A stretch of DNA of 64,000 nucleotides from an uncultured Elusimicrobia bacterium (GCA_903879915.1 CAIRNJ010000042.1:1-64000), one strand, 5' to 3'; shown: positions 3,050 through 41,202, counted from the stretch's first letter. A program made the numbers and translations. Notes: a model not told the origin generated them from the sequence alone.

Positions 3050-4575
3050 ACCCGAAACCCGGAAGCTGGCCGTGGCTGCTCATGCACGAGATGCGCGTGA
3101 GCTGGCGGGGCATCGGAGGCAGCCATAACGGGCTTATAGCCGTCTGCGCCGCGCTGCTGTGGGCGGCCATGCACTGGGGCGCCTGGGTGGCGCTGCCGGC
3201 AGTCTACGGCTTAATGGTGAAAGGCCTTCAGTCCCCCGTCATCCTCGGCGGCCTGTTCTGGATAATGGTTTCGCTGACGGTCTCGCAGACCATGATACAC
3301 ACCGTGAACGCCCTGATAGGCCGGGGCGACATGGACCTGCTCCTGTCGTCGCCGCTGTCCCAGCGCTCCATCTTTATGGTGCGCGGACTTTCCATCGCTC
3401 TCAGCGCGTGCCTCCTGCCGGCGTTCGCGCTGAGCCCGGTGGCGAATGTCGGGCTGCTCAGGGGTATGCCGGGGCTGGCAGCCATTTACCCGGTGCTGGC
3501 CGCCTCGGCGCTGGGCTGCGCGGCGGCGGGCATGCTGCTTACCATGACGCTCTGGCGCCTGCTCGGCGCACGGAGGGCCCGGGTGGCGGCGCAGGTCTTC
3601 GCCGCGTTCATCGGCGCGGGTTTTTTCCTCGTCTGCCAGGCGCCTAATTTCCTGTCCAGCGGCGCCAAGCTGGCGCTGGCGGCCTGGTTCAAGGCGGGCC
3701 TGCGGCCGGGCGGCTGGCTGGGCGCCGGCAGCGCGCTCTGGTGGCCGGTACGCGCTATGTTCGGCGAGCCGCTGCCGCTGCTGGCGGTGATGGCCGCCGG
3801 CACAGGCGGCTTCTGGCTGGTGCTCAATCTCACCTACCGCCGCTTTATCACCGGCACGCAGGAAGCCGTTGCCGGCGGGAGCGCGGCTCCGAAGACGGAC
3901 GCCGTGAATTCCGGGCCGGCTTTCCGCTCCGGTCTGACGCGGATACTTATTTTCAAGGAGTGGAAGCTGATAGCGCGCGATATGCAGGTGATCTCTCAAA
4001 CGCTGATACAGTTGCTGTACCTGGTCCCGCTTGTTTTCATCTGCGTCCGCTCGGGCCCGGAGAGCTGGCGGCTGCTCCCGCCCCTGGTGGCGTGCGCGGC
4101 CATGCTGGCCGGGAACGTGGCGTGGCTGACCATTAACGCCGAGGACGCCCCGGAGCTGGTGGCGACCGCGCCGGTCTCCCTGCCCCGCGTGCTGTGGATC
4201 AAAGCCGCCGCCGCCGTAGTGCCGGTGCTGGCGCTGCTGCTGCCGCTGGCCGCCTGGTGGGCGGTGCGCGATCCGCTGATGGCGGCCGTGCTGCTGCTGT
4301 GCGGCACGGGGGCCATGCTGTCCGCCGCGGCCATCCAGGTGTGGAACCTCCGCCCCGCCAGCCGCGGCGACATGAAAAAGCGGATGAAAAAAGGCGACGT
4401 CGTCGGGTACATCGAACTGCTGAGCACTGTGGGCTGGGCCGGCATAGTGGTGTGCGTCAACGGTTACTGGCGCTACCTTCCCGCGGCCGCGGCGGTGGTG
4501 GCAGTCTCCCTTCTGTCGGCCTGGCAGCTCGGGCGGGCGGCGCGCGAAGCCCTCTGTTACGGGCGAACGGCCTAG
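3046..4575 (+). CDS. ABC-2 type permease, twelve-helix-like
   Basis: 509-residue, strongly hydrophobic protein overlapping the ATPase gene by 4 bp (ATGA). Hydrophobic stretches are spread along the whole length in two halves separated by a polar linker near residues 265-300, suggesting a fused permease of about twelve helices. It should be the membrane partner of the upstream ATPase. The substrate cannot be read from sequence. Confidence 0.85.
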   Translation: MNPKPGSWPWLLMHEMRVSWRGIGGSHNGLIAVCAALLWAAMHWGAWVALPAVYGLMVKGLQSPVILGGLFWIMVSLTVSQTMIHTVNALIGRGDMDLLLSSPLSQRSIFMVRGLSIALSACLLPAFALSPVANVGLLRGMPGLAAIYPVLAASALGCAAAGMLLTMTLWRLLGARRARVAAQVFAAFIGAGFFLVCQAPNFLSSGAKLALAAWFKAGLRPGGWLGAGSALWWPVRAMFGEPLPLLAVMAAGTGGFWLVLNLTYRRFITGTQEAVAGGSAAPKTDAVNSGPAFRSGLTRILIFKEWKLIARDMQVISQTLIQLLYLVPLVFICVRSGPESWRLLPPLVACAAMLAGNVAWLTINAEDAPELVATAPVSLPRVLWIKAAAAVVPVLALLLPLAAWWAVRDPLMAAVLLLCGTGAMLSAAAIQVWNLRPASRGDMKKRMKKGDVVGYIELLSTVGWAGIVVCVNGYWRYLPAAAAVVAVSLLSAWQLGRAAREALCYGRTA

Positions 4576-4639
4576 CCGGAATATTTTGAATTGCGTCGTT
4601 TAATTGCTAAAATTAATAACTGGGTTGTAATCTGATTTC

Positions 4640-4713
4640 GGGCCCGTAGCTCAGTTGGTTAGAGCAAGCGACTCATAATCGCTGGGTCGTAGGTTCAAGT
4701 CCTACCGGGCCCA
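4640..4713 (+). tRNA. tRNA-Ile2 (CAT anticodon, lysidine type) or tRNA-Met
   Basis: Complete 74-nt cloverleaf. The acceptor stem 4640-4646 pairs perfectly with 4706-4712, with discriminator A at 4713 and no encoded CCA. The D-arm, a 5 bp anticodon stem with loop CTCATAA (anticodon CAT) and a TTCAAGT T-loop are all present. The anticodon arm and the GGTCGTAGGTTC T-arm resemble E. coli and B. subtilis tRNA-Ile2 more than elongator tRNA-Met. If so, the wobble C would be converted to lysidine by TilS to read AUA. Cloverleaf certainty is high; Ile2 versus Met is moderate. Confidence 0.93.
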
Positions 4714-4720
4714 GTAATTT

Positions 4721-4753
4721 AAAAAGACGTCCGCAGTACGCGGGCGTCTTTTT
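4721..4753. terminator. Bidirectional intrinsic terminator
   Basis: A 14 bp stem (one G-T pair) with loop AGTAC, flanked by five A on one side and five T on the other. It can stop both the tRNA transcript (+) and the convergent MORN-repeat gene (-). Confidence 0.85.
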
Positions 4754-4769
4754 ATTTCCGGCGCGGTCT

Positions 4770-5831
4770 TTACTGCTGCGCGAATTCCGTGGCCTTGCCT
4801 TCATGAAAGGTGTACGTGGCCCTCAGCGCGCCGCCGTCGTCGTACTGGCGCAGCGCTTTTACTTCGTTCTGCTTGAAGAGCATTTCTTTCTGCAGCTTGC
4901 CGTCCCTGCCGTAAACCCTGGCCGTGCCGTCGGGAACGGTGCCGTCCTGGCCGATAACGTTGAACTCCGCGTCCAGGCGGACTTTGCCGATGTATTTGGC
5001 GTTGAGCTTGAAGGCGATTATTTCGCCGCGCGCTACTTTGGTCGTCCTGCCGGTCACCAGGGAGTCCTGTTCCTGCGCCCGGGCGGCGGGCGCCGCCGCG
5101 GGTTTGGGCGGGTCGGTCACCCGGTCGTCCTCGTAGTAAGCCTCGTTCTTCAGCGCGCCGTCCGGCCCGTACTCCCTCTTCCAGCCGTTGAGCCGGTCGT
5201 TCTTGTAGGCGGCTTCCATCAGCGGCTTGCCGTTCTCGCCGAAATATTTAAAATCCCCGTCCTTGGCTCCGTCGAAATAGTAAGCCTCCAGCTGCGGCAC
5301 GCCCGCCGGGTAATAAGCCTTCAGCGAACCGCTCATCTTTCCGCCCAGCACGGTCTTTATCGTTTTCAGGTTCCCGTCCGCGTAATATTCGGAGTAGGTG
5401 CCGTTCTTGATGGCGCCTTCAAGCGAAACCGGGGAGCCGGCCGCGTCGAAAGTTTCGGTGGCTATAGCCACGCCGCTCTCGAAGTATACAAGCCGGCGGG
5501 TTCCGCCTTCCGGCAGGAGGGTGGAAAAGGTGAACTGCGCCCGGGCTTCGGGTAGTTCGGGGGGGGCGGCGGGCGCTTCGGCCGCGGCGGTGGAGACCGG
5601 CGCCTCGAGGCCGGCCGCGGGCTGCGCGGGAACCGCCGGAGCGGCCTGCCGCTCCGCTACCTCGGCCTTGTCTACTGTGAGCGAGCCGTACCGGGTCTTG
5701 ATGAGCAGGGTCTGGTCCATCTCGCCGGCCAATTCGCCGTCGAGCTTTGTTCCGTCCTTGAGCAGGAACGTGTCGGCCCGGCAGACCGCGGCGGTAAGCA
5801 GCAGAACGAAAGAAAAAATAGCTGGTTTCAT
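4770..5831 (-). CDS. Secreted MORN-like repeat protein
   Basis: 353 residues with an N-terminal signal peptide (cleavage near VCRA). A short beta segment around residues 20-60 (LKDGTKLDGELAG) is followed by an Ala/Pro-rich linker to about residue 95. Then come several repeats of the DG..Y..G....Y type (YADGNLKT, YYPAGVPQLEAYYFDG, YGPDGALKNEAYYEDD), the MORN_2/YwqK-like pattern. The start has a GGGAG Shine-Dalgarno. MORN_2 proteins are usually surface or periplasmic; no enzymatic motif is visible. It diverges from the Rrf2 gene and ends at the bidirectional terminator. Confidence 0.75.
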   Translation of the reverse strand: MKPAIFSFVLLLTAAVCRADTFLLKDGTKLDGELAGEMDQTLLIKTRYGSLTVDKAEVAERQAAPAVPAQPAAGLEAPVSTAAAEAPAAPPELPEARAQFTFSTLLPEGGTRRLVYFESGVAIATETFDAAGSPVSLEGAIKNGTYSEYYADGNLKTIKTVLGGKMSGSLKAYYPAGVPQLEAYYFDGAKDGDFKYFGENGKPLMEAAYKNDRLNGWKREYGPDGALKNEAYYEDDRVTDPPKPAAAPAARAQEQDSLVTGRTTKVARGEIIAFKLNAKYIGKVRLDAEFNVIGQDGTVPDGTARVYGRDGKLQKEMLFKQNEVKALRQYDDGGALRATYTFHEGKATEFAQQ

Positions 5832-5916
5832 AAAAAATCTCCCATCGGAATGATTATTCTACAAAAAAGGCGGGGCCTGATACAGCGGCCCGACCCCGGG
5901 CCGCATAAAATACCTC

Positions 5917-5951
5917 TTGACAGAATGACACTTATCTGGTATCATTATAAT
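5917..5951 (+). promoter_or_regulatory. Promoter and candidate operator of the Rrf2 gene
   Basis: TTGACA at 5917-5922 and TATCAT at 5940-5945 are separated by 17 bp; a TATAAT lies at 5946-5951. An imperfect inverted repeat, AATGACAC (5924-5931) and GTATCATT (5939-5946), matches at 7 of 8 positions with a 7 bp spacer. It overlaps the spacer and -10, where an Rrf2 dimer could bind and repress. The predicted transcript start is only about 3 bases before the ATG at 5955, and no Shine-Dalgarno is present. Confidence 0.65.
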
Positions 5952-5954
5952 ATC

Positions 5955-6350
5955 ATGAAATTACTCAACAGGGAAGTTGATTATGCCGTCCGCGCCATGG
6001 TGCTGATGACGAGGGCCAACAAACCGACGGTTTCGGTGGCGCAGATGCAGGAAGGGGTGGGGGTGAACCGGCCTTTCCTGCGTAAAATACTGCAGAAACT
6101 GCATAAAGCGGGGCTGCTGCAGGCCTCTAAAGGCAAGGGCGGCGGGTTTTCGGCCGCGAAAGCGCCTGAGAACATACGCCTGTCCGACCTGATAGCCGCG
6201 CTGCAGGGGCCGGTGAAGCTTAACGACTGTTTCTTCCGGAAGAAGCTGTGCCGCAACCACGGCACCTGCCTGCTGCGCCGCAGGATAGGCGAAGTTGAAG
6301 CCCGCCTGGCGGAGGAAATGGAAAGGATAACGCTGAAGGACCTGGTCTGA
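5955..6350 (+). CDS. Rrf2-family Fe-S transcriptional regulator
   Basis: 131-residue winged-helix regulator starting MKLLNREVDYAVRAM, the canonical Rrf2 start. The DNA-binding helix region is followed by the wing GKGGGFSAAKAPENI. Three cysteines near residues 94-108 (C-X6-C-X5-C) match the Fe-S ligand cluster of IscR, NsrR and RsrR, so cluster-based sensing of NO, oxygen or iron is likely. A frame opening at 5850 is rejected as a start. The next gene is a 4Fe-4S protein 20 bases away, likely in the same operon and under autoregulation through the operator upstream. Which signal it senses is not readable. Confidence 0.92.
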   Translation: MKLLNREVDYAVRAMVLMTRANKPTVSVAQMQEGVGVNRPFLRKILQKLHKAGLLQASKGKGGGFSAAKAPENIRLSDLIAALQGPVKLNDCFFRKKLCRNHGTCLLRRRIGEVEARLAEEMERITLKDLV

Positions 6351-6370
6351 CCCGGTCCATTAAGGAATAC

Positions 6371-7213
6371 ATGAAGACAAAACGGCAGATAATAAAAATA
6401 GATCAGGAGAAATGCGACGGCTGCGGCAACTGCGTGACCGGCTGCCGCGAGGGCGCGCTGCAGGTGATAGACGGCAAAGCCCGCCTGATCAGCGACCTGC
6501 TGTGCGACGGGCTGGGCGCCTGCATCGGCGAGTGCCCGCGCGGCGCGATAAAGATAGAGGAGCGGGAAGCCGTTCCCTACGACGAAATAAAAGTTATGGA
6601 GGGCATGGCCGAACAGGGCCCCAACACCATAAAAGCCCACCTGCGGCACCTCCGGGACCACGCGCAGAAAGCGTTCTTGGAACAGGCTCTCGGCTATCTG
6701 GAAAAGAACGGCATCCCGAACCCGATGGAGGAAGAGATGAAAAAAGAACACGAACCCTGCGGCTGCCCCGGCGGCCGGATGATGGACCTGCGGGCGACCG
6801 CGGCGGAGGACGGGGACTCGCCCGCCGCCAGGTCGCGCCTGCGCCAGTGGCCGGTGCAGCTGCACCTCGCCTCGCCTCTGGCGCCGTATTTCCAGAAGGC
6901 GGACGTGGTGGTGGCGGCGGACTGCACCGCTTTCGCCTGCGGGAACTTCCACGAAGAGTTCATAAAAGGCAAAGCCATCGTGATCGCCTGCCCGAAGCTC
7001 GACGACGGGCAGGAGCTGTACCTGGAGAAAATACAGGCCCTGATCGAGGACGCGAAGATCAACACGCTGACCGTGGTGACCATGGAAGTGCCCTGCTGCG
7101 GCGGCCTGCTGGCGCTGGTCAAGCGCGCGCTGGAAGCCTCTAAGCGCAAAGTGCCGGTAAAGCACGCGGTGATAGGCATAGGCGGGGCGATAAAGAGCGA
7201 AGACTGGGTATGA
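6371..7213 (+). CDS. 4Fe-4S dicluster ferredoxin-like protein
   Basis: 280 residues with a tandem ferredoxin domain at the N-terminus: CDGCGNCVTGC and CDGLGACIGECP at about residues 15-58. A central Cys cluster CGCPGG lies near residue 130. The C-terminal domain has further cysteines (CTAFACGNFHEEF, CPKLDD, EVPCCGG) that could bind another cluster. Proteins of this layout are found next to Rrf2 regulators and hybrid-cluster-protein genes in anaerobes and are presumed electron carriers. The start has AAGGA upstream. The exact redox partner is unknown. Confidence 0.85.
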   Translation: MKTKRQIIKIDQEKCDGCGNCVTGCREGALQVIDGKARLISDLLCDGLGACIGECPRGAIKIEEREAVPYDEIKVMEGMAEQGPNTIKAHLRHLRDHAQKAFLEQALGYLEKNGIPNPMEEEMKKEHEPCGCPGGRMMDLRATAAEDGDSPAARSRLRQWPVQLHLASPLAPYFQKADVVVAADCTAFACGNFHEEFIKGKAIVIACPKLDDGQELYLEKIQALIEDAKINTLTVVTMEVPCCGGLLALVKRALEASKRKVPVKHAVIGIGGAIKSEDWV

Positions 7214-31686: not shown

Positions 31687-32748
31687 CTATTGGTTCTCTA
31701 GATAAGCCGAGACGGCGCGGAGGATCTCCGCGGACAGTTTTTTGCCCAGCGCGGTCTCCGTTTTGAAACGCGCTTCTCCGGCGGAAGCCGAGGCCTCTTT
31801 GGCGGCGGCGCTGAAATTCAGGAAGGTCTTATCTGTTTTAACTTCTTTGAGCGCCACCGAGCCCGTGCCCCGGTGCCAGTGCCAGCGGGATTCTGGGTCG
31901 GCGTCCGCCACGGCGGAAAGCTTTACCTCGCACTCCGCGGCTATGTCGGCGCCGCCGGCCGCCGCGGCCACCCTGGCCTCTATGCCAATGCCGTTGAGGG
32001 CTTTGATCACGGCCGCGGTCACCTGGGCCGAGTTGTCCGCGGTCATTATCAGCGCCATGTCCACCGCGGCCAGCGCCCTGACCGCGTCCCGGCGGGCCGC
32101 GTTCACGTCCTGCCCCGGCGCCGAGGCGCCGGCGGGGTCCAGCACACGCATGTCCGCGGCCAGGTCCGCCCGGTTCTTAAGGAGCCCCAGCAGCTTCAGC
32201 GCGTATTTCGCCTTCTGGAGCTTTTCCGCGGCGCCCGCCAGCTGCGCCGCCAGGTCGCGCGTCCGGGCGTCCGTCTCCCGCACTCTTTCCTCCAGGGAGG
32301 CCAGCGCCTTGGAGCGCTCCAGCACCGCCAGCGCGAAGTACTGGCCGTTGGTGGGGTCGCGCCAGGCGGCCGCTATTTCCACGCCTTCGAGGTTCTTCTG
32401 CGAGACCGCGCGCACGTTCTGCGAGGCGTTCTGCGACGAGGAGGTGAGGGTCTTGCCCTGCGTTTCCGAAGTGTATTCGGCCGCGGCCACGGCGGAGTTC
32501 ACCGTGACCTGGGCGGAGAAAACCTTGGAGATCTCGCCCCGCGCCCGGTCCTTGGCCGCGTTCAGGTCGTCCGCAGAGGAAACGCCGGTAAGGAAGCGGC
32601 TCCGTGGATACCCGGAGTCGGCGCCGTCCACCCAGGCGGGGCGCGGCGTAGGCGCAGGTATGGCTGCGGCGCGCTGCGGCCTTGCGCTGGTAGAAGCGCA
32701 GCCCGCCAGCAGCGCCGCGCAGAGAACGGCGGCAAAGATCCTAGGCAT
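31687..32748 (-). CDS. LPP20-like lipoprotein with long C-terminal extension
   Basis: 353 residues with lipobox LLAGC (Cys17). An LPP20-type domain starts at PAWVDG and contains SAKDRARGEI-like spacing (AAKDRARGEISKVFSA). A helical segment (about 195-235) and a C-terminal domain with VDMALIMTADNSAQVTAAV follow, rather like a FlgT/CsgG-associated module. The ATG at 32748 has a strong AGGAGG Shine-Dalgarno; the open frame further upstream lies inside the COG3014 gene and is rejected. Last gene of a four-gene lipoprotein operon, probably outer-membrane anchored. Confidence 0.78.
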   Translation of the reverse strand: MPRIFAAVLCAALLAGCASTSARPQRAAAIPAPTPRPAWVDGADSGYPRSRFLTGVSSADDLNAAKDRARGEISKVFSAQVTVNSAVAAAEYTSETQGKTLTSSSQNASQNVRAVSQKNLEGVEIAAAWRDPTNGQYFALAVLERSKALASLEERVRETDARTRDLAAQLAGAAEKLQKAKYALKLLGLLKNRADLAADMRVLDPAGASAPGQDVNAARRDAVRALAAVDMALIMTADNSAQVTAAVIKALNGIGIEARVAAAAGGADIAAECEVKLSAVADADPESRWHWHRGTGSVALKEVKTDKTFLNFSAAAKEASASAGEARFKTETALGKKLSAEILRAVSAYLENQ

Positions 32749-32759
32749 AAAAGAACCTC

Positions 32760-34094
32760 CTACAGGGCCGTGCGGTATTGCAGGTACGTCCGCCGGCCTT
32801 TTATCACTTCCACGTCCCTGAAAATTATGTTGCCCGTCGGGTTGCCGGCGCGGTCGGTAAATGTGATGATGACGTCCTGCCGGCCGGGCGCCACCGCCAG
32901 GCGCGCCATGCGTATCTGCGCGGGCAGGGTGGTCCAGCCCCGGGTGTCCGCGGTCTCGGTGGCCGCTCCGGCGGCGCTGGTGATCATCTTGGCCAGCAGC
33001 CCCAGGCCGGCCCCGGCGCGTTTCTCCACCTCGGCGGACGCCGCCCTGGCCAGCGCGAATTTTATGGCGGCCCGGGCTATGGCGCGCAACCTGATGGCCG
33101 CGTTCTTCTCTTCGAGGCACTGGCGGGCGATGCCCGAGATGTCCTCCATCAGCAGGGAGTCCGTTTCCGCTCCGCCCGCGGCTATGCGCGACCCGGCGAT
33201 GGTGTACGGGTCCTGCACGTATTCCGGGTAAGCTACGGTTATGGCGTCGCCCAGTATGCCGGTGTTCACGGCGTTCCTGAAGCGCGCGGCGTCCGGCTCG
33301 TCCTGGCCGCTCTGGTTCACCGCCAGCATGGCCTCGTTCCAGGCCACCTGGAAAGTGCGCGAGACCTTCATGGGGGAGGGGCCGTTGTAGTGCAGGAACA
33401 CTATCTCGCCCAGGCCCAGTTTCTCGAGCTTGGAATAGGGCGGTACTTTGAACTGCGGCTCGGGCGTAGCGTAATCCGCGGCGTAATCCTTGAAGGCCGC
33501 CTCCGCCGCTTTGTATGAAATGCGCGCGTCGTCCCGGCTGCCGCTCTGCTCGAAGAGCATGGCGCTCAAGTACTGCGCGAAAGCGCTGTCCTTGTAGCCG
33601 CTTTTGCCCTGCATGAATTCATTGAAGCGGGCGAGGTAGGCCGTCACTTTCCTTGCCTCCACCAGCGCTTCGTCCGTGTTGCCCATGAAAACGAAGTTCA
33701 GCGCGCGGAAAGCGTTTAGCAGCGCCCGCTCGAACACCTCGCCGGCGTATTTGGTGGTGTTGTCGTTGAGCAGGAAAGTGCCCGCGCCGCGGCTTACGCT
33801 GCGGGTGAACAGTTCTTCCATCCTGCCTTCCGCCGTTTCCAGGTCCCGGTCGCTTTCGGCGTATTTCGCCGCGTCGTGCAGCACCATGCCCCGGTCGAGG
33901 TAATACAGCACGGCGTTCTTCTCGCCGTATTCGGAGGTCTTCGCGCCCTCTATCTCCGCCTGCGCGCCTGCGTAGTCGTAGGCGGCCAGGCGGGCGTTGA
34001 GCCCCGTCCTGTACGAGCGCGACGGCCCGGCGCAGGCCGTCAGAACGACGGCCGCGACGGAGAGCACGCAACGCGCGGGGCGGGGGAGGGTCAT
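32760..34094 (-). CDS. COG3014-family lipoprotein
   Basis: 444 residues with a signal peptide and lipobox VVLTAC. TPR-like helical content covers residues 30-200 (YYLDRGMVLHDAAKYAESDRDLETAE, ALLNAFRALNFVFMGNTDEALVEARK), followed by a beta-rich C-terminal domain (GLGEIVFLHYNGPSP). This matches the COG3014 family, which is regularly found beside LpoB-like and LPP20 genes in Gram-negative bacteria. Role unknown; envelope biogenesis suspected. Eleven bases separate it from the next gene. Confidence 0.8.
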   Translation of the reverse strand: MTLPRPARCVLSVAAVVLTACAGPSRSYRTGLNARLAAYDYAGAQAEIEGAKTSEYGEKNAVLYYLDRGMVLHDAAKYAESDRDLETAEGRMEELFTRSVSRGAGTFLLNDNTTKYAGEVFERALLNAFRALNFVFMGNTDEALVEARKVTAYLARFNEFMQGKSGYKDSAFAQYLSAMLFEQSGSRDDARISYKAAEAAFKDYAADYATPEPQFKVPPYSKLEKLGLGEIVFLHYNGPSPMKVSRTFQVAWNEAMLAVNQSGQDEPDAARFRNAVNTGILGDAITVAYPEYVQDPYTIAGSRIAAGGAETDSLLMEDISGIARQCLEEKNAAIRLRAIARAAIKFALARAASAEVEKRAGAGLGLLAKMITSAAGAATETADTRGWTTLPAQIRMARLAVAPGRQDVIITFTDRAGNPTGNIIFRDVEVIKGRRTYLQYRTAL

Positions 34095-34112
34095 CGGCGG
34101 CTTACCCGGCGG

Positions 34113-34712
34113 TTACCAGGTAGAGCCTGACCGCTTAACCGCTTTCTTTATCTTCTTCTGGCCGGTCCAGGCTATCTGGTTGTTCTTCATGTTCAGCAGC
34201 TTCAGGTTGACCTGATAAAGGATGACGGATTTGCCGCCTTCTTTATCCTCAATGGAGCTCATGTTGCCGCTCAGCATGAAGTCCGCGCCGGTCTCCTGGC
34301 CGTGGGCCTTCTTGGTCTCTTCGGAGGCGTTGGTATCCTGGTCCAGCCGCTCGTCGCGCACGTCGCCGCGCTCGTCCTTGCTGGCCACGAAGGTGACGCG
34401 GCCGGAGTTGATCAGCGCGCGCTGCAGGTCCTCCACGAACACGCCGGTGTTGATGTGTTCGCTGCTCTGGTTGCGGACGGAGCCTACTATCACCGTGGGG
34501 TTCTCGCCGGACGCCCCCGAGGCGGAGCTCAGCCACGGGCGCGCGAGACAGTCGGAGATCATCTCTTCGGCCGTCAGGCGGGAGTCCGTGTCGTTCCATT
34601 TGCCGCTGATGTCCACCACCGCGGCGGTGTCGATACGTTTTACCTGCGTGCCGCCGCAGCCCGTAAGGACGGGCAGCGCCAGCAGCGGGGCCAATAATAG
34701 ATACTTTTTCAT
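34113..34712 (-). CDS. LpoB-like penicillin-binding-protein activator lipoprotein
   Basis: 199 residues: signal peptide with lipobox VLTGC, then a single LpoB/TolB-N-like domain (AEEMISDCL, PTVIVGSVRNQSSEHINTGVF, ADFMLSGNMSSIED, YQVNLKLLNMKNNQIAWTGQKKIKK). In E. coli LpoB is an outer-membrane lipoprotein that activates PBP1b. The homology is to the family; whether a PBP is the partner here is inference. Middle gene of the lipoprotein operon. Confidence 0.85.
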   Translation of the reverse strand: MKKYLLLAPLLALPVLTGCGGTQVKRIDTAAVVDISGKWNDTDSRLTAEEMISDCLARPWLSSASGASGENPTVIVGSVRNQSSEHINTGVFVEDLQRALINSGRVTFVASKDERGDVRDERLDQDTNASEETKKAHGQETGADFMLSGNMSSIEDKEGGKSVILYQVNLKLLNMKNNQIAWTGQKKIKKAVKRSGSTW

Positions 34713-34748
34713 AAAGCCCTGTCTCCTTGTCCGATATTAGCGCGCGGC

Positions 34749-35336
34749 TCAGTGCTTGGCTTCTTCGGCGGCCAGGTCGTCGAAGGCCTTGTCCGCGTTG
34801 GCCTTCACGTAATCGCGCACTTTGGAGTCCAGCTCCTTGGCTTTATCGAGCTGCGCTTTCACGCCGGCCACGTCGAGCTTGGCCAGCGCGAACATGGAGC
34901 CGTCGGAGGAGTCTATCCAGTGGTCCACGATAACGACGCCCGAGAGGTTCATCTGGGTGAAGCTCTTAAGCGAGTTGGTGACGTTCTGCTCCTCGCTGGA
35001 GCTTTTCATGTCGCCGGCCGTGGTGGAGGCCATGTAATCTTTGGTCAGCTTGGCTATGTAGGTATTGAAAACCTCGGCGATCTTCGCGCGCGCGCGGCCG
35101 TCGGCCGTGTCTATGGCCAGCGCCCTGTTCCGGATGCCGGTGGCTATGCCGACGCCGTAGAAGTTGCCGTCCTTGAAGGCGCCGGAGCCCTGGTTCACCC
35201 AGGCCGGGCCGGAGGCCGCGATGGGCGCGGCTACGGCCGCGGTCTGCACGTTCTTGTTGCCGCCGCCGCAGCCGGCGAGAGCGATAACGGCGCTGACGCA
35301 GAATAGTACCTTCACCGAACTGTTGATATTTTTCAT
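34749..35336 (-). CDS. LPP20 family lipoprotein
   Basis: 195 residues with lipobox ALAGC and a compact LPP20 domain starting GPAWVNQGSGAFKDGNFYGVG and containing TADGRARAKIAEVFNTYIAKL. First gene of the minus-strand operon LPP20, LpoB-like, COG3014, LPP20-like. LPP20 proteins are outer-membrane lipoproteins first described in Helicobacter; their function is unclear. Shares its opening motif with the other LPP20-like protein and with the lipoprotein at 35717. Confidence 0.85.
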   Translation of the reverse strand: MKNINSSVKVLFCVSAVIALAGCGGGNKNVQTAAVAAPIAASGPAWVNQGSGAFKDGNFYGVGIATGIRNRALAIDTADGRARAKIAEVFNTYIAKLTKDYMASTTAGDMKSSSEEQNVTNSLKSFTQMNLSGVVIVDHWIDSSDGSMFALAKLDVAGVKAQLDKAKELDSKVRDYVKANADKAFDDLAAEEAKH

Positions 35337-35716
35337 TTTTTAACCCCTTTTTTGAAAGAAATTACCGGCTAGCTTGCCAACCCAAAAATTAGCAATTAAT
35401 GCCTTTATTGTCAAACAGGTAGAGAGAGGATAAGGATGGAACGATAAAGGACTTGCGCGGTCACCGGCTCTCCCGGACGGGAAGCCGCGTGAAGGTCCGT
35501 GAAAAAAGTCCGCCTTTTTTGTATCATAGCCAGAATGGACGGGAGGGGCGCGCGTTTTGCATTTTTTTTAGTAGGCCGGACAGAGGCTGGACGAAATAAA
35601 CCGTCTTGTAAACCACGGTTTTTAACGTCCGGTCCCGTACCGGCGCGGCCGGCCGTCTTTCGCCCCGGCGGTAAGACCCGGGCGGGAACACGCGGGTCCT
35701 AAGGAGAACGGTGTAA
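35337..35716. other. 380-bp divergent intergenic region
   Basis: It carries back-to-back regulatory signals for the lipoprotein operon (-) and the DUF4384/CHAT pair (+). A strong minus-strand promoter lies at 35386-35414. A weak plus-strand promoter candidate is GTGAAA (35499-35504), 17 bp, TATCAT (35522-35527). A short hairpin (35502-35520) and a GC-rich untranslated leader with AAGGAG before the ATG at 35717 complete it. I see no convincing gene; a 67-codon frame at 35499 starts with GTG and has no ribosome site. Confidence 0.55.
35386..35414 (-). promoter_or_regulatory. Predicted promoter of the lipoprotein operon
   Basis: On the minus strand TTGACA (35409-35414) and TAATTT (35386-35391) are separated by exactly 17 bp, about 50 bases before the LPP20 start codon. 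Confidence 0.6.
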
Positions 35717-36706
35717 ATGAAAAGAACAGCCATTCTGATATGCTGCGCGCTGGCCGCCGCGGCCTGCTCCACGCCCCAGACCGCGGAAAGGCCGGGATTC
35801 AAAGCGGAAAAGCCGGCCTGGTTCGAGAAGACCATAGTGCCGCAGGGCGCGGAGATCCTGGCCGTTGGCCATTCCGGGCCGCAGGCCGATGAGCAGAAGG
35901 CAAAGGACGAAGCCCTGGCTAACGCCACGAAGGAATTTGCGCGTTACTGCAAAGCGGACGTGGATTCGCTGGACAGGATCTATGAGACCTATTCCCGCGA
36001 GAACGCGAAAACGAACGAAACCCTGAGCGTTGAGAACCGCAACCAGGTGCGGGTAAAGGCCTTCGTCAAACGCGCGGTGCCGGACGACTGGTATGTGCGG
36101 CGGGAGAAGAAAAACTGGCTGGCCTCCGTTCTGCTCAAAGTGCCCAAAGAGGAATTCGACAGGATCTCGACCGAGAAGAACGTCAAACTGTCCCTTGATA
36201 TAGGGTTCTATTTCGAGGACGCGGATAAAAAAATGCAGCCGCTTGGCGACGGCAGCGTGCTGAGGTCCGGCGACGGCTACGCCGTCTATGCAAAGCCCAG
36301 CGACACCTGCTTCCTGTACGTCTACCAGGTGGACGCGCTGAATAAATCGTTCCGGCTGTTCCCGAACCCGCAGTTCAAGACCGCGGAAAACCCCGTGCCG
36401 GCCGCGTCCGTCCTGTGGGTGCCCAATGACAAGGAGGTGCTGTTCCTTGACGAAACCACGGGCAAGGAGTCTTTTTATATCTTCGCCTCCCCGGAAAGAA
36501 TACCCGATTTCGAGGGGGAGAAAGGCGTGAACCTTACGCGCGGCGATATGGACCTGCTGGGCAAAAAAATGGGTGCGGCGGGCGTGCGGCGCAAGCTCGA
36601 TACGTCCACGGTAGCGCCCCCCGCGAAAAGCGACGTGGTTGAAGTGAAGAAAAAACTGCAGGCCGAAGGCGCTTTCGTCTACGAAACCTGGTTCTGGCAC
36701 AAATAG
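35717..36706 (+). CDS. LPP20/DUF4384 lipoprotein
   Basis: 329 residues. Signal peptide with lipobox AAAACS. An LPP20-like N-terminal domain follows (KPAWFEKTIVPQGAEILAVGHSG, DEALANATKEFARYCKADVDS). A DUF4384-like beta domain covers about 165-270 (GYAVYAKPSDTCFLYVYQVDA, FRLFPNPQF). DUF4384 domains commonly accompany caspase-fold and CHAT-fold proteases in bacteria. Start ATG has AAGGAG eleven bases upstream. Only 25 bases separate it from the CHAT gene, so they should be one operon. It may be the envelope partner or adaptor of the CHAT protein; inference. Confidence 0.78.
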   Translation: MKRTAILICCALAAAACSTPQTAERPGFKAEKPAWFEKTIVPQGAEILAVGHSGPQADEQKAKDEALANATKEFARYCKADVDSLDRIYETYSRENAKTNETLSVENRNQVRVKAFVKRAVPDDWYVRREKKNWLASVLLKVPKEEFDRISTEKNVKLSLDIGFYFEDADKKMQPLGDGSVLRSGDGYAVYAKPSDTCFLYVYQVDALNKSFRLFPNPQFKTAENPVPAASVLWVPNDKEVLFLDETTGKESFYIFASPERIPDFEGEKGVNLTRGDMDLLGKKMGAAGVRRKLDTSTVAPPAKSDVVEVKKKLQAEGAFVYETWFWHK

Positions 36707-36731
36707 AAGCGAAGTATACGGGGGGTTGCTT

Positions 36732-39700
36732 ATGAAAAAAACGCTTTGGGCGGCGGTGCTGCTTTGCGCGAACGTGTTCGCCGCGCAGCTGCATGCCGCG
36801 GATATAATGGCTCTGATGGAAAAAGGGAATGAAAGCTTCCGGGTTTCCGATTACCAGGGGGCGCGGGAAGCGTGGCAGGCGGGGCTTGAAGAAGCGAAGC
36901 GCCAGCGCAATAAGCAGGGAATAGGCGCGTTTACCGGCAACCTCGGGGTCGTTTATGAAAAGTTAGGCGACTACCCGAAGGCTTTGGAGTATGATCTGCA
37001 GGGGCTTGCGAACTTGCGCAATGCCGGTGATAAAACGGGCGAAGCCAATATGCTCGGCAACATCGGGAACGTTTATATGCGCCTGGGGGATTTCCCCAGG
37101 GCGCTGGAGCATCAGCAGCAGGCGCTTAAGCTCGACAGGGGCCTGGGCAACAAAAAAGGCGAAAGTTCCGATCTTGGCAACATCGGGCTTATCTATGAGA
37201 AACTGGGCGACTATCTAAAAGCGTTGGACCACTGCCAGCAGGCACTTAAGGGCGCCCGGGAACTGGGCAACAAAAAGATCGAAAGCAATAACCTCGGCAC
37301 CATCGGGAATATCTACTCCGACCTGGGCGACTATCCGAAAGCTTTGGAGCACCACCTGCAGTCGCTTGCGATCAAGCGGGGAATAGGCGACAGGAACGGC
37401 GCGGGCAACAGCCTCAACAATATCGGGAATGTTTATGATAGTCTGCTGGACTATCCGAAGGCGCTGGACTACTACCAGCAGGCGCTTGAAAGCAAACGGG
37501 AGATAGGCGATAAAAAGGGCGAAGGCGCCAGCCTCGGGAACATAGGGCTTGTCTATGAAGAGCTCGGCGACTATCCGAAGGCGTTGGAGCTCTATCAGCA
37601 GGGGCTTAAAATTGAACGGGATATCGGCGACAGAATGAGCGAAGGCGATACCTTCACCAACCTCGGGAATTTATATAACAGGCTGGGCGACTATCCGAAG
37701 GCGCTGGAGCACTATCAGCAGGCGCTTGATCTTGCCCGTGAAATAAGCGACAAAAAGAACGAAAGCAAAAACCTCGCCAACCTCGGGGTTCTCTATGAGG
37801 ATCAGGGCGACTATCCGAAAGCTCTGGATCACTTTCAGCAGGCGCTTGGCGTGCAGCAGAAGATAGGCGCGCCCATAGAAAAAATCGAACTCAATATCGG
37901 CGATGTTTACCTGGACCGGGGCGAGTTCGACCGCGCGTTTTCGCTCTACTCCAAATATGACGCCCCTTTGCGGCTTGGCCGGTATTACCTGGCAAAAAAG
38001 GACTTCTCCAGGGCGAAAGAAACGCTGGTTGGCTATCTCGCTGACGCCGAGAAGAAAAAGAACAGCAGCCTCCTTATGGCCTGGTACACGAACCTGGGGT
38101 TGGCGGAGGAGGGGTTGAAGAATAACGGCCCTGCCCTGCAATATTTCCGCAAGGCGGCGGAAACGCTTGAAGAAATACGCTCCTCCCTGACCGAATCTCA
38201 GCGCGCCAACTTTTTCGGGGCCAAGACGGAAGGCGTTCCGCGGCTGGAAGTTTACGAGGGGCTTGTCCGGACCACGGCAGCGTCGCAGGAAGGCGCAAAA
38301 GGGGCTTTCTATTACGCGGAGTTCACGCGCGGGCGGCTGCTGGCGGAATCTATTTCAAAAAAATACGGCGGAACGAAGCCGCGGATACCGCAGGCTGCCG
38401 GAGAAAAAGAAACCGAACTGACCGACAGGCTCGCCTCGGCGTACAAACAGCTGCAGGCGGCTTTTGAGAAGAATAATGCCGACAGGTACAAAGAGCTGCA
38501 AGGCGAGCAGGCCGCGCTGAAAAAAGAGCAGGCGGCGTTCGTAGCCGGGCTGCGCAGGGACTACCCTGAATATGCCGCCATCGTCTATCCCGAGCCGATA
38601 GCGGCCGGAAGCGTCGCGCTTTCGCCCGACGAAACGCTGCTGGAGTTCGAGGTGACCGGGAACGAAACGCTGCTTTTCATCCTGAGCGGAAAAGATAGAA
38701 CCCTGAAGCTCCGCCGGATCCCCGTCGCACGCGAACAGCTGGCCGAAACCGTCGGCAAATACCGCGGCGCGTTCGCGAACGTGGAATCAGCGCAGGACCT
38801 GGCGAAATACGATGCCGCGGGCGGTAAAAATATCTACGACCTGCTGTTCGGGGGCGAACTGAAGAGCCTGCCGGCCGGCGCGAAGCTTATCATAGCCCCG
38901 GACGAGGTGCTGGGCGTCCTGCCGTTCGAGTCGCTGGCGGTGGAGGTGCCCGCCGCGGAAAAGATCGGCGAGGGGAAACACGGCCCTTTCCCCGTAGGCG
39001 TCAAATACCTTGGCGACAAGTACGCCGTAAGCTACGCGCAGTCGGCCACTTCGCTGACCATGCTGCGCACGCTGAAGAAAGGCGGGGCCGGGGCCGATAC
39101 CGCGCTGGCCGTGGTGGACCCGGTGTTTTCCGCGGGTGACAGCCGGGCGAAGAAACTTTCGGCCGCCGCGAAGCCGGAAGAGGGAGGCATGAAGCTGATG
39201 GGCGCGCTGACGCGCTGGAAAACCATGGGCGCGGCGGGGACGAGGGGGCGGGGTGAGGGCAACAGCGAAGCCGCGGACGCGGACGCCGTCTTTCCAAGGC
39301 TGGAGAAGACCGCCGAGATAGGCCGGCAGCTCAAAGAGCTGTTCGGCGGCGCAGCCGCCGTGGTTTCGGACGAAAAAGCGCGGAAAGAGGATATTCTCAA
39401 GCTGCCGCTCGATAAATACAAATATCTTGTTTTCGGCACGCACGGCATCCTGGACGGGGCGGTGCCTTACATCCGGCAGCCCGCGCTGGTCCTGAACCAG
39501 GTTGGCAACAGGGCCGCCGAGGACGGCTTCCTGACGATGACGGAGGTAATGGGGCTGAAGCTGGGCGCGGAAGTGGCCGCGCTTACGGCCTGCGAAACAG
39601 GGGTGGGCAAGTACGTGTCCGGGGAAGGCGTGATGGGGATGGGAAGGGCGTTCCAGTTCGCCGGGGCGGGCAACGTGCTTATGAGCTTGTGGTCGGTTTC

Positions 39701-39857
39701 GGAGGACGCGACGGTGGCCTTGTCGGGAGAATTCTTCAAACAGTTGAAAGCCGGCAGAACGCCCGCCGAAGCGCTGGCGCTGGCGCGGACCGAAATACGC
39801 CGGCAGGGCTACGAGCATCCGTTCTACTGGTCGGCTTTCATACTGATGGGGAACTGA
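36732..39857 (+). CDS. Secreted TPR-CHAT protease-like protein
   Basis: 1041 residues. Signal peptide 1-23 (ends LHA). Residues about 60-390 contain eight consecutive 40-residue TPRs (pattern LGNIGNVY..LGDYPKALE..QQAL) that lie on an exact 120-bp DNA period. A helical region with YFRKAAETLEEIRSSLTESQR and FYYAEFTRGRLLAESI leads to the CHAT domain. The catalytic pair is His904 (VFGTHGILDG) and Cys954 (LTACETG), and the end GYEHPFYWSAFILMGN is canonical. CHAT proteases cleave partner proteins when activated through TPR contacts; most characterised ones are cytosolic, so a signal peptide is notable. An ATG at 36732 is used, not a TTG at 36726. Confidence 0.9.
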   Translation: MKKTLWAAVLLCANVFAAQLHAADIMALMEKGNESFRVSDYQGAREAWQAGLEEAKRQRNKQGIGAFTGNLGVVYEKLGDYPKALEYDLQGLANLRNAGDKTGEANMLGNIGNVYMRLGDFPRALEHQQQALKLDRGLGNKKGESSDLGNIGLIYEKLGDYLKALDHCQQALKGARELGNKKIESNNLGTIGNIYSDLGDYPKALEHHLQSLAIKRGIGDRNGAGNSLNNIGNVYDSLLDYPKALDYYQQALESKREIGDKKGEGASLGNIGLVYEELGDYPKALELYQQGLKIERDIGDRMSEGDTFTNLGNLYNRLGDYPKALEHYQQALDLAREISDKKNESKNLANLGVLYEDQGDYPKALDHFQQALGVQQKIGAPIEKIELNIGDVYLDRGEFDRAFSLYSKYDAPLRLGRYYLAKKDFSRAKETLVGYLADAEKKKNSSLLMAWYTNLGLAEEGLKNNGPALQYFRKAAETLEEIRSSLTESQRANFFGAKTEGVPRLEVYEGLVRTTAASQEGAKGAFYYAEFTRGRLLAESISKKYGGTKPRIPQAAGEKETELTDRLASAYKQLQAAFEKNNADRYKELQGEQAALKKEQAAFVAGLRRDYPEYAAIVYPEPIAAGSVALSPDETLLEFEVTGNETLLFILSGKDRTLKLRRIPVAREQLAETVGKYRGAFANVESAQDLAKYDAAGGKNIYDLLFGGELKSLPAGAKLIIAPDEVLGVLPFESLAVEVPAAEKIGEGKHGPFPVGVKYLGDKYAVSYAQSATSLTMLRTLKKGGAGADTALAVVDPVFSAGDSRAKKLSAAAKPEEGGMKLMGALTRWKTMGAAGTRGRGEGNSEAADADAVFPRLEKTAEIGRQLKELFGGAAAVVSDEKARKEDILKLPLDKYKYLVFGTHGILDGAVPYIRQPALVLNQVGNRAAEDGFLTMTEVMGLKLGAEVAALTACETGVGKYVSGEGVMGMGRAFQFAGAGNVLMSLWSVSEDATVALSGEFFKQLKAGRTPAEALALARTEIRRQGYEHPFYWSAFILMGN
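36926..37885 (+). repeat. Eight tandem 120-bp units coding TPRs
   Basis: GGCGACTA-type segments recur every 120 bp from about 36966 to 37806, one per TPR. The DNA copies are similar enough to have arisen by recent in-frame duplication, so copy number may vary between strains. Confidence 0.85.
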
Positions 39858-39923
39858 AGTCCGGGCCGGGGGAGCTTCTCCGCGCTATTGCCGCCGCCGG
39901 CGGGGCGGTCCGGGGGAAGCTCC

Positions 39924-40277
39924 TCAGGTCAGGGCCCGGGCCACGGTTTTCATGAAGCTTTCCGGCTCCAGCGGCTTGGGCAGGCATTCCAGCACCGCGT
40001 AGGCGGCGAGGGCGCCGGGTTCGGGCGGGGAGCCGGTAACCAGCAGGCTTTTGGCGCCGGCGGACCTTTCCGCGAACAGGCGCGTCAGCTCCGTGCCCAG
40101 CCCGTCGGGGAACATCAGGTCCGTCACCAGCAGATCGTAATGGTTCTTTCCTATCAGGGCCGCGGCCGCGGCTACGCTTTCAGCGTAAGTGAGCTCGTAA
40201 TCCCTGCCGGAGAACAGGCCTGCATAGACCCGGAGCATCGCGGGGTCGTCGTCGGCTATCAGTATCTTTCGGGGCAT
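39924..40277 (-). CDS. Receiver-domain response regulator
   Basis: 117 residues, receiver only: acidic pair ADDDP near the start, phospho-acceptor Asp in LLVTDLMFPDG, Lys in ECLPKPLEPESF. It is not of the Rcp1 type. The ATG at 40277 follows AAGGCGG; an M at 40295 is possible. It converges with the CHAT gene and its partner kinase is not adjacent. Confidence 0.85.
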   Translation of the reverse strand: MPRKILIADDDPAMLRVYAGLFSGRDYELTYAESVAAAAALIGKNHYDLLVTDLMFPDGLGTELTRLFAERSAGAKSLLVTGSPPEPGALAAYAVLECLPKPLEPESFMKTVARALT

Positions 40278-40329: not shown

Positions 40330-41202
40330 TTAATTGAACAGCTTAAGACTTACCCGCCGCGGCCCGGAGCCGAATTTCGCGACGGATATGCCGTCAAAGA
40401 ACAGTTCAAAAGCGTAGCGTGCGGTGTCCACCGGTTCGCCCATGCGGTAGCCGGGGTTGTCCGCCTGATTAGTAAGAGGATGGCCGAAGCCGGCGGCGTC
40501 GTCCGTTGAAGTGGGAAAGGTGTCCGTGAGGAAGAATGATTCCGGAAAACGGTCGAAGACCTTGCGGATGGCGGCCGGGGAGGCGGTTTTGGGGTCGAGC
40601 GCCAGCAGCTCTTTATATACGCCGGCGTCCTCCTCGTAAAAATAGATGGCCTTAAGCGGCATGTTCACGGTGAACGGCTTGCCGGAGGCCTCGAAATGCA
40701 TGCGTATGGCGTCGCGCGCGGCCAGCGTCTGGCAGCCGCGGGCGCCGTCGTAGCTGCCGAAAAAGCCGCCGATTATAGTAACTTCGCCGGCGGCCAGAGG
40801 CAGGTTGTGTTCGCCGCCCGCCGAGAACAGCTCGTAATCGGGGGCGCGGTCGGCCGGGTACCAGTCGGAGTAGCCCTGCGCTGACTGGTCGTTGAGCAGA
40901 TAGATCACCGGGCGGCCGGCGGCCTTGTAGCCGGCCACCACGGCGTTTATGCCGCCGGCGGCCGAGGCGGTCTCGTCAAAAGCGCGGCTGGCGTGCACCA
41001 CTATAAGGGGATCGTCCGGCAGCCGGGAGGGAAGTTCGTTCTTCGGGTTGCGGGGTGCCAGCGCGGCCGCCGCCGGGGCGGGGGGCGGAACTTTCAGGCC
41101 GGAGCCCAGTATCTCGGCGGCGGTTATGGCGCGCAGCTGGGCGTGCGCCGGTAAATTCAGGGCGGATAAGAACAGGGCCAGGGTCAGCGCGCAGCGGTTC
41201 AT
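40330..41202 (-). CDS. Secreted protein of unknown function
   Basis: 290 residues: signal peptide (1-21, ends AHA), then PLIVVHASRAFDETASAAGG, GRPVIYLLNDQ, GEVTIIGGFFGSYDGARGCQTLAARDAI and a C-terminal FDGISVAKFGSGPRRVSLKLF. The alternating alpha/beta pattern could be a small hydrolase or isochorismatase-like fold, but I recognise no catalytic motif. The start lacks a Shine-Dalgarno. A minus-strand TAAATT (41210-41215) lies 13 bases before the ATG, fitting a leaderless transcript. Confidence 0.6.
   Translation of the reverse strand: MNRCALTLALFLSALNLPAHAQLRAITAAEILGSGLKVPPPAPAAAALAPRNPKNELPSRLPDDPLIVVHASRAFDETASAAGGINAVVAGYKAAGRPVIYLLNDQSAQGYSDWYPADRAPDYELFSAGGEHNLPLAAGEVTIIGGFFGSYDGARGCQTLAARDAIRMHFEASGKPFTVNMPLKAIYFYEEDAGVYKELLALDPKTASPAAIRKVFDRFPESFFLTDTFPTSTDDAAGFGHPLTNQADNPGYRMGEPVDTARYAFELFFDGISVAKFGSGPRRVSLKLFN

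Follow-up and report, generated by a model that had tools for sequence, protein, structure and literature searches.

A predicted exported TPR-CHAT protein with a recurrent DUF4384 partner beside an apparently independent lipoprotein operon in an uncultured Elusimicrobia bacterium

Introduction

Proteases that combine a tetratricopeptide repeat (TPR) region with a CHAT domain are mainly known as cytosolic, RNA-gated enzymes. The 64,000-nucleotide stretch of DNA analyzed here, taken from an uncultured Elusimicrobia bacterium (CAIRNJ010000042.1:1-64000 of GCA_903879915.1; contig C42, with a total genome size of 3.37 Mb) and referred to below as the window, encodes a TPR-CHAT protein with a predicted signal peptide, preceded by the gene of a putative DUF4384 lipoprotein and lying divergently from an LPP20-LpoB-COG3014-LPP20 operon. 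Which, if any, of these lipoproteins belong with the protease is the question that the locus raises. The initial annotation had proposed a single envelope system comprising all of them. Its six genes, their positions, and the divergent arrangement were borne out, four of the genes with Pfam matches (CHAT and TPRs, DUF4384, LpoB, and LPP20). Of the proposal itself, an apparently extracytoplasmic TPR-CHAT protein with a recurrent exported DUF4384 partner stands, whereas membership of the operon does not, since two related genomes (G002 and G008) carry the operon without CHAT and the pair is found elsewhere without the operon. Through a recurrent, apparently mobile gene pair, a TPR-CHAT protein and its DUF4384 partner would both be placed outside the cytoplasm, and DUF4384, a domain of unknown function, would gain a concrete, testable role.

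The predicted exported TPR-CHAT protein and its DUF4384 partner

The TPR-CHAT gene occupies positions 36732–39857 on the plus strand and, read from its better start (ATG at 36732), encodes 1041 residues, the numbering used below. Its CHAT domain is matched by Pfam with an E value of 3e-51, alongside TPRs, and the score against PF12770 is 174.8 bits, compared to a curated cut-off of 24. The chain consists of a signal peptide (residues ~1–23), a TPR solenoid (~25–480), a linker, and the CHAT domain (~700–1041). The N terminus, MKKTLWAAVLLCANVFAAQLHAAD, reads by inspection as a type I signal peptide, as had been claimed, and signal peptides also start most proteins of the same clade; all export signals and lipoboxes in this work were called by inspection and simple patterns. 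The window protein combines this putative export signal with an adjacent DUF4384 gene. The predicted catalytic dyad is intact, in agreement with the initial annotation: His904 (codon 39441–39443) lies within THG and Cys954 (39591–39593) within ACETG, both invariant across 10 aligned homologs, and the dyad is kept in all but one of 32 CHAT rows.

The DUF4384 gene (35717–36706, plus strand) ends 25 bases before the CHAT start at 36732, the spacing originally reported. It encodes a predicted lipoprotein of 329 residues with an LPP20-like N terminus, a DUF4384 domain at residues 182–260 (Pfam E 1e-8, 35.5 bits against a cut-off of 27), and a conserved C-terminal end, AEGAFVYETWFWHK. Its lipobox (AAAC) is weaker than those of the four operon proteins. 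The protein shares 52–57% identity with the partners at loci L057 and L060, which are encoded beside CHAT, and at L058, where CHAT is 3 kb away; a plasmid search with it gave no match. The N terminus is LPP20-like in partners of the window type and FlgO- or CsgG-like in others.

Recurrence of the gene pair

The distribution of both genes was followed in 341 genomes of the phylum Elusimicrobiota. With full-length CHAT as the query only promiscuous TPR matches were obtained, and the CHAT region together with PF12770 was used instead; the CHAT-region scan yielded 41 loci. CHAT genes are present at 29 places in 21 of the 341 genomes, and a DUF4384 gene directly adjoins nine of these (in G000, G139, G196, G199, G205, G230 (twice), G231, and G233), with L057, from another record, as a tenth. 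In G212 the two genes are ~3 kb apart. About 0.1 pairs within 4 kb would be expected from the copy numbers, and even counting only four independent lineages the chance of such pairing is ~3e-6. The pair as such is real. It occurs in three gene orders (DUF4384 first, CHAT first, and convergent), and the DUF4384 label changes at least six times on the CHAT tree, which shows that the association formed or broke repeatedly. Taken together with the three orders, these changes mean that the pair does not descend in a single frozen arrangement. Of the 341 genomes, five have full-length DUF4384 proteins of the window type, and four of the five have a window-clade CHAT as well; in one, G189, the partner is on a different contig from its two window-clade CHATs. 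Across genomes, co-occurrence thus holds for the DUF4384/CHAT pair, whereas LPP20-LpoB-COG3014 does not accompany the other exported pairs.

Presence and absence of the segment in related genomes

The LpoB of a sister species, G002, shares 99% identity with that of the window, and G002 carries all four operon genes and the adjoining response regulator. It lacks a segment of 4506 bases (35417–39922), which comprises exactly the DUF4384-CHAT pair with its own upstream region and which we read as an acquired cassette. The blastn junction falls at 2843|2845 in G002 and at 35416|39923 in the window, with the alignment resuming within 1–2 bases on either side. CAGGT is present close to each end (35416 and 39925), but its length is insufficient for it to be counted as a target-site duplication. 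Beside the cassette, ~870 bases of the region 40330–41202 are also absent from G002, marking a second indel; in the window this region holds a gene for 290 residues, whose start resembles a signal peptide and which has no match in Pfam.

All four operon genes are also present, without CHAT, in G008; other congeners carry at least three of them (LPP20b-LpoB-COG3014) without CHAT, and family f2 retains LpoB-COG3014. Across the order, CHAT is found in two of 149 genomes and is absent from 147, with G139, of the same family as the window genome, carrying the same CHAT-DUF4384 locus (L059). The complete operon without the pair in G002, and the lack of CHAT in 147 of the 149 genomes, make the operon appear older and the pair acquired. 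The GC content at third codon positions is 0.74 and 0.77 in the two cassette genes and 0.84–0.87 in the operon, which fits acquisition but is not proof, because a nearby histidine kinase gene also has 0.77. Read most simply, a two-gene cassette was inserted next to an older, independent operon, with gain, rather than loss, as the direction that we infer.

DUF4384 and caspases

DUF4384 is also found beside or near exported caspases, at L174, L175, L176, L218, L221, and L209. G002 has one DUF4384 gene and one caspase gene, which are ~3.6 kb apart on the same strand; no caspase was found in the window's own genome. DUF4384 has been reported as an accessory domain fused to cyanobacterial orthocaspases (PMC7475262, PMC8283722) and, along with pseudo-orthocaspase and trypsin-like domains, from an alphaproteobacterial clade (PMC6426788). 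A literature search found no paper with both ‘CHAT domain’ and DUF4384. The caspase neighbors, the orthocaspase fusions, and the pairing with CHAT together point to a partner domain of clan-CD peptidases, and from its sequence contexts DUF4384 looks like a partner of those that act outside the cytoplasm. Together with the exported CHAT pair, its presence beside exported caspases suggests caspase-like proteolysis in the bacterial envelope. With somewhat more doubt than belief, we can extend this to a general regulatory partner of extracytoplasmic CHAT and caspase peptidases, which would be exported, sometimes lipidated, provided with a swappable N terminus (LPP20-, FlgO-, or CsgG-like), and would control a TPR-gated protease, as the envelope-side counterpart of the cytosolic caspase/CHAT systems.

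Other arrangements were seen around these genes. At L209, a caspase, a CHASE2-cyclase, and DUF4384 stand in a row, with the cyclase in between; at L064, CHAT is followed by FecR-like and CHASE2-like genes, as read by eye; and at L222, FecR, DUF4384, and LPP20-like genes are consecutive. FecR and CHASE2 thus recur near these clan-CD peptidases. In G346 (Desulfomonile; L126, L134, and L143), six DUF4384 domains lie in a ~5 kb stretch of a contig, three of them in one protein of 540 residues.

The neighboring lipoprotein operon

The operon, judged to be a separate neighbor, lies on the minus strand. Its first gene, LPP20b (34749–35336), is followed by genes for an LpoB-family lipoprotein (34113–34712; PF13036, E 1e-41, 142.5 bits), for a COG3014-like lipoprotein (32760–34094), whose place after LpoB is the same in congeners and family f2, and for LPP20a (31687–32745; PF02169, E 5e-10), also part of the operon in G002 and G008. 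Clear lipoboxes are present on all four proteins. The LpoB-family protein carries LTGC, as seen by inspection, in addition to its LpoB domain, and scores 107.5 bits against the NCBIfam equivalog TIGR02722, just below the cut-off of 110.6. Neither LPP20b nor the COG3014-like gene has a Pfam match over the cut-off, which leaves the COG3014 label of the latter unconfirmed, and no mention of COG3014 was found in the literature search. The PAW opening described as common to several of the lipoproteins reflects true homology between LPP20a and LPP20b (hhalign 98%, E 1e-14), whereas the N terminus of the DUF4384 protein matches them weakly (32% and 8%). A candidate promoter of the operon (TTGACA, 17 bases, and a weak TAATTT; 35386–35414, minus strand) was found by eye and is not listed by the promoter scan; positions 35377–35416 align to G002 at 85%, and the candidate promoter is intact beside the insertion. 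Elsewhere, cytosolic-type CHATs at L150, L154, and L167 have an LPP20b-like lipoprotein gene within ~2.5 kb, followed at L154 and L167 by that of a PEGA-domain protein.

Proposed mechanism and alternative explanations

The explanation that we prefer, and to which we give about as much credence as doubt, is that the horizontally acquired cassette 35417–39922 is a partner-controlled envelope protease module, consisting of a TPR-CHAT clan-CD cysteine peptidase and a dedicated exported DUF4384 partner, lipidated in this case, with the operon being independent. The partner, held to the membrane by its lipid, would bind TPR-CHAT, either in the periplasm or on the cell surface, keeping the peptidase in place and gating it. 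Cleavage of an envelope protein through His904/Cys954 might then be released by a cue, with either the TPR solenoid or the LPP20-like N terminus of the partner as the sensor. The TPR-gated step is modeled by analogy on Craspase and separase.

Several observations weigh against this explanation. Lipidation of the DUF4384 partner varies among homologs: a lipobox-like motif is present in the window and at L057, L161, and L149, and is absent at L058, L060, L062, L059, L147, and L157, while the CHAT protein itself has a lipobox in others (L147 and L151; genomes G230 and G233). Since it is not conserved, anchoring of the protease by lipoproteins, as first suggested, does not appear to be a general rule, and the lipid may be on either partner or on neither. 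Nine CHATs of the 17-row secreted clade have no close DUF4384 gene; conversely, G324, the fifth genome with a window-type partner (one copy at a contig end), has no CHAT that was found in the 341-genome survey. The partner is therefore not always co-encoded with an exported CHAT. One CHAT of the window clade, L168 in G323 (3981–7085), has lost both catalytic residues, with Asn and Ser aligned to His and Cys, which indicates that a non-proteolytic role probably exists in at least one relative; DUF4384 was not found in the G323 genome. The predicted structures count partly for the explanation and partly against it. The model of the CHAT protein is good (predicted local distance difference test score, pLDDT, 83) and contains TPR and CHAT elements, and its best fold matches besides TPR proteins are separase (top), DdvA, and the Craspase TPR-CHAT (E ~1e-11 to 1e-13), with TM-scores so low (~0.3–0.5) that they support only the fold class. 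For DUF4384 the model is weak, with a pLDDT of 61, and none of its matches in the fold search is reliable; weak matches to Tip-alpha and beta-sandwich folds were set aside.

Among the alternatives, the DUF4384 protein could be a substrate or inhibitor whose cleavage frees an effector, in the manner of Csx30, the target protein cleaved by Craspase (PMC11106740). The recurring pairing would agree with this, and a variable N terminus joined to a constant DUF4384 is what would be expected of a cleavable effector or sensor; yet no conserved cleavage site was identified, none having been sought, and the DUF4384-orthocaspase fusions (PMC8283722) fit a regulatory domain better, so that we consider this alternative unlikely. 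Quite unlikely, and a degree more so, is an extracytoplasmic CHAT scaffold or signaling receptor that is not a protease, for which DdvA, a transmembrane anti-sigma factor, would be the parallel. Structures of DdvA are among the top fold matches, L168 has no dyad, and the CHAT gene of G329 (L145) adjoins apparent anti-sigma and sigma genes, as read by eye; against this, both catalytic residues are intact in the window protein and in almost every homolog that was read, and the window pair adjoins neither a sigma nor an anti-sigma gene.

A patchy distribution and a site next to an unrelated operon could also suggest an anti-phage or other conflict module, in which a mobile protease would be triggered at the envelope, and bacterial conflict systems do use CHAT and caspase domains as effectors (PMC10907252). 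An exported protease would, however, be unusual for known intracellular defense, the PADLOC matches are to TPR-containing or generic models only, with none to a system-specific model, and no other defense genes were seen next to the pair, which makes this very improbable. The least probable of all is the system originally envisaged, in which the operon lipoproteins together with DUF4384 would anchor, sense for, or regulate the protease. The divergent adjacency in the window speaks for it, as do LPP20b-like genes, which in G180, G188, and G193 lie within ~4 kb of a CHAT of the cytosolic type (three against 0.08 expected, the three CHATs falling in one clade) and elsewhere follow ~10 DUF4384 genes. 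Some link of LPP20 to CHAT or DUF4384 may thus exist, although the operon in the window is no evidence for it: full and partial operons persist without CHAT in G002, G008, congeners, and family f2, no other exported CHAT-DUF4384 pair has such an operon alongside, and the insertion lies just outside the candidate promoter of the operon.

Comparison with known systems

Separase, the eukaryotic protease of cell division, resembles the window protein in having a clan-CD protease after a long alpha-helical solenoid, whereas a sequence search of the PDB with the CHAT region gave no match, to separase or otherwise. DdvA (PDB 8ROT, 8RW5) matches in fold over the TPR-CHAT region; it is an anti-sigma factor according to the PDB titles, whereas among the 25 Pfam matches shown for the window protein only TPR-type and CHAT families are present, with no anti-sigma family. 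The Craspase TPR-CHAT (Csx29, type III-E CRISPR) shares the TPR solenoid and a C-terminal CHAT with a His/Cys dyad, but it is cytosolic and bound to the RNA-guided gRAMP, whereas the window protein has a predicted signal peptide and a DUF4384 partner. Neither CRISPR genes nor Cas7-11/gRAMP or Csx30-type genes were seen beside the window pair, whose neighbors are the LpoB operon and a response regulator.

The operon has its own counterpart in Helicobacter, where HP1457 has been described as an LpoB homolog encoded in an operon with an hp0018 homolog in many enterohepatic species; the window operon likewise holds an LpoB homolog and two LPP20 proteins, and the portion of that source consulted (PMC11394524) describes no CHAT or DUF4384 there. 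The DUF4384 orthocaspases differ from the window pair in carrying a caspase (Peptidase C14) domain instead of CHAT and in being described as fusions, whereas the genes are separate here. What they have in common with it is the link of a clan-CD peptidase to DUF4384, within one chain in cyanobacteria and between adjoining genes in the window.

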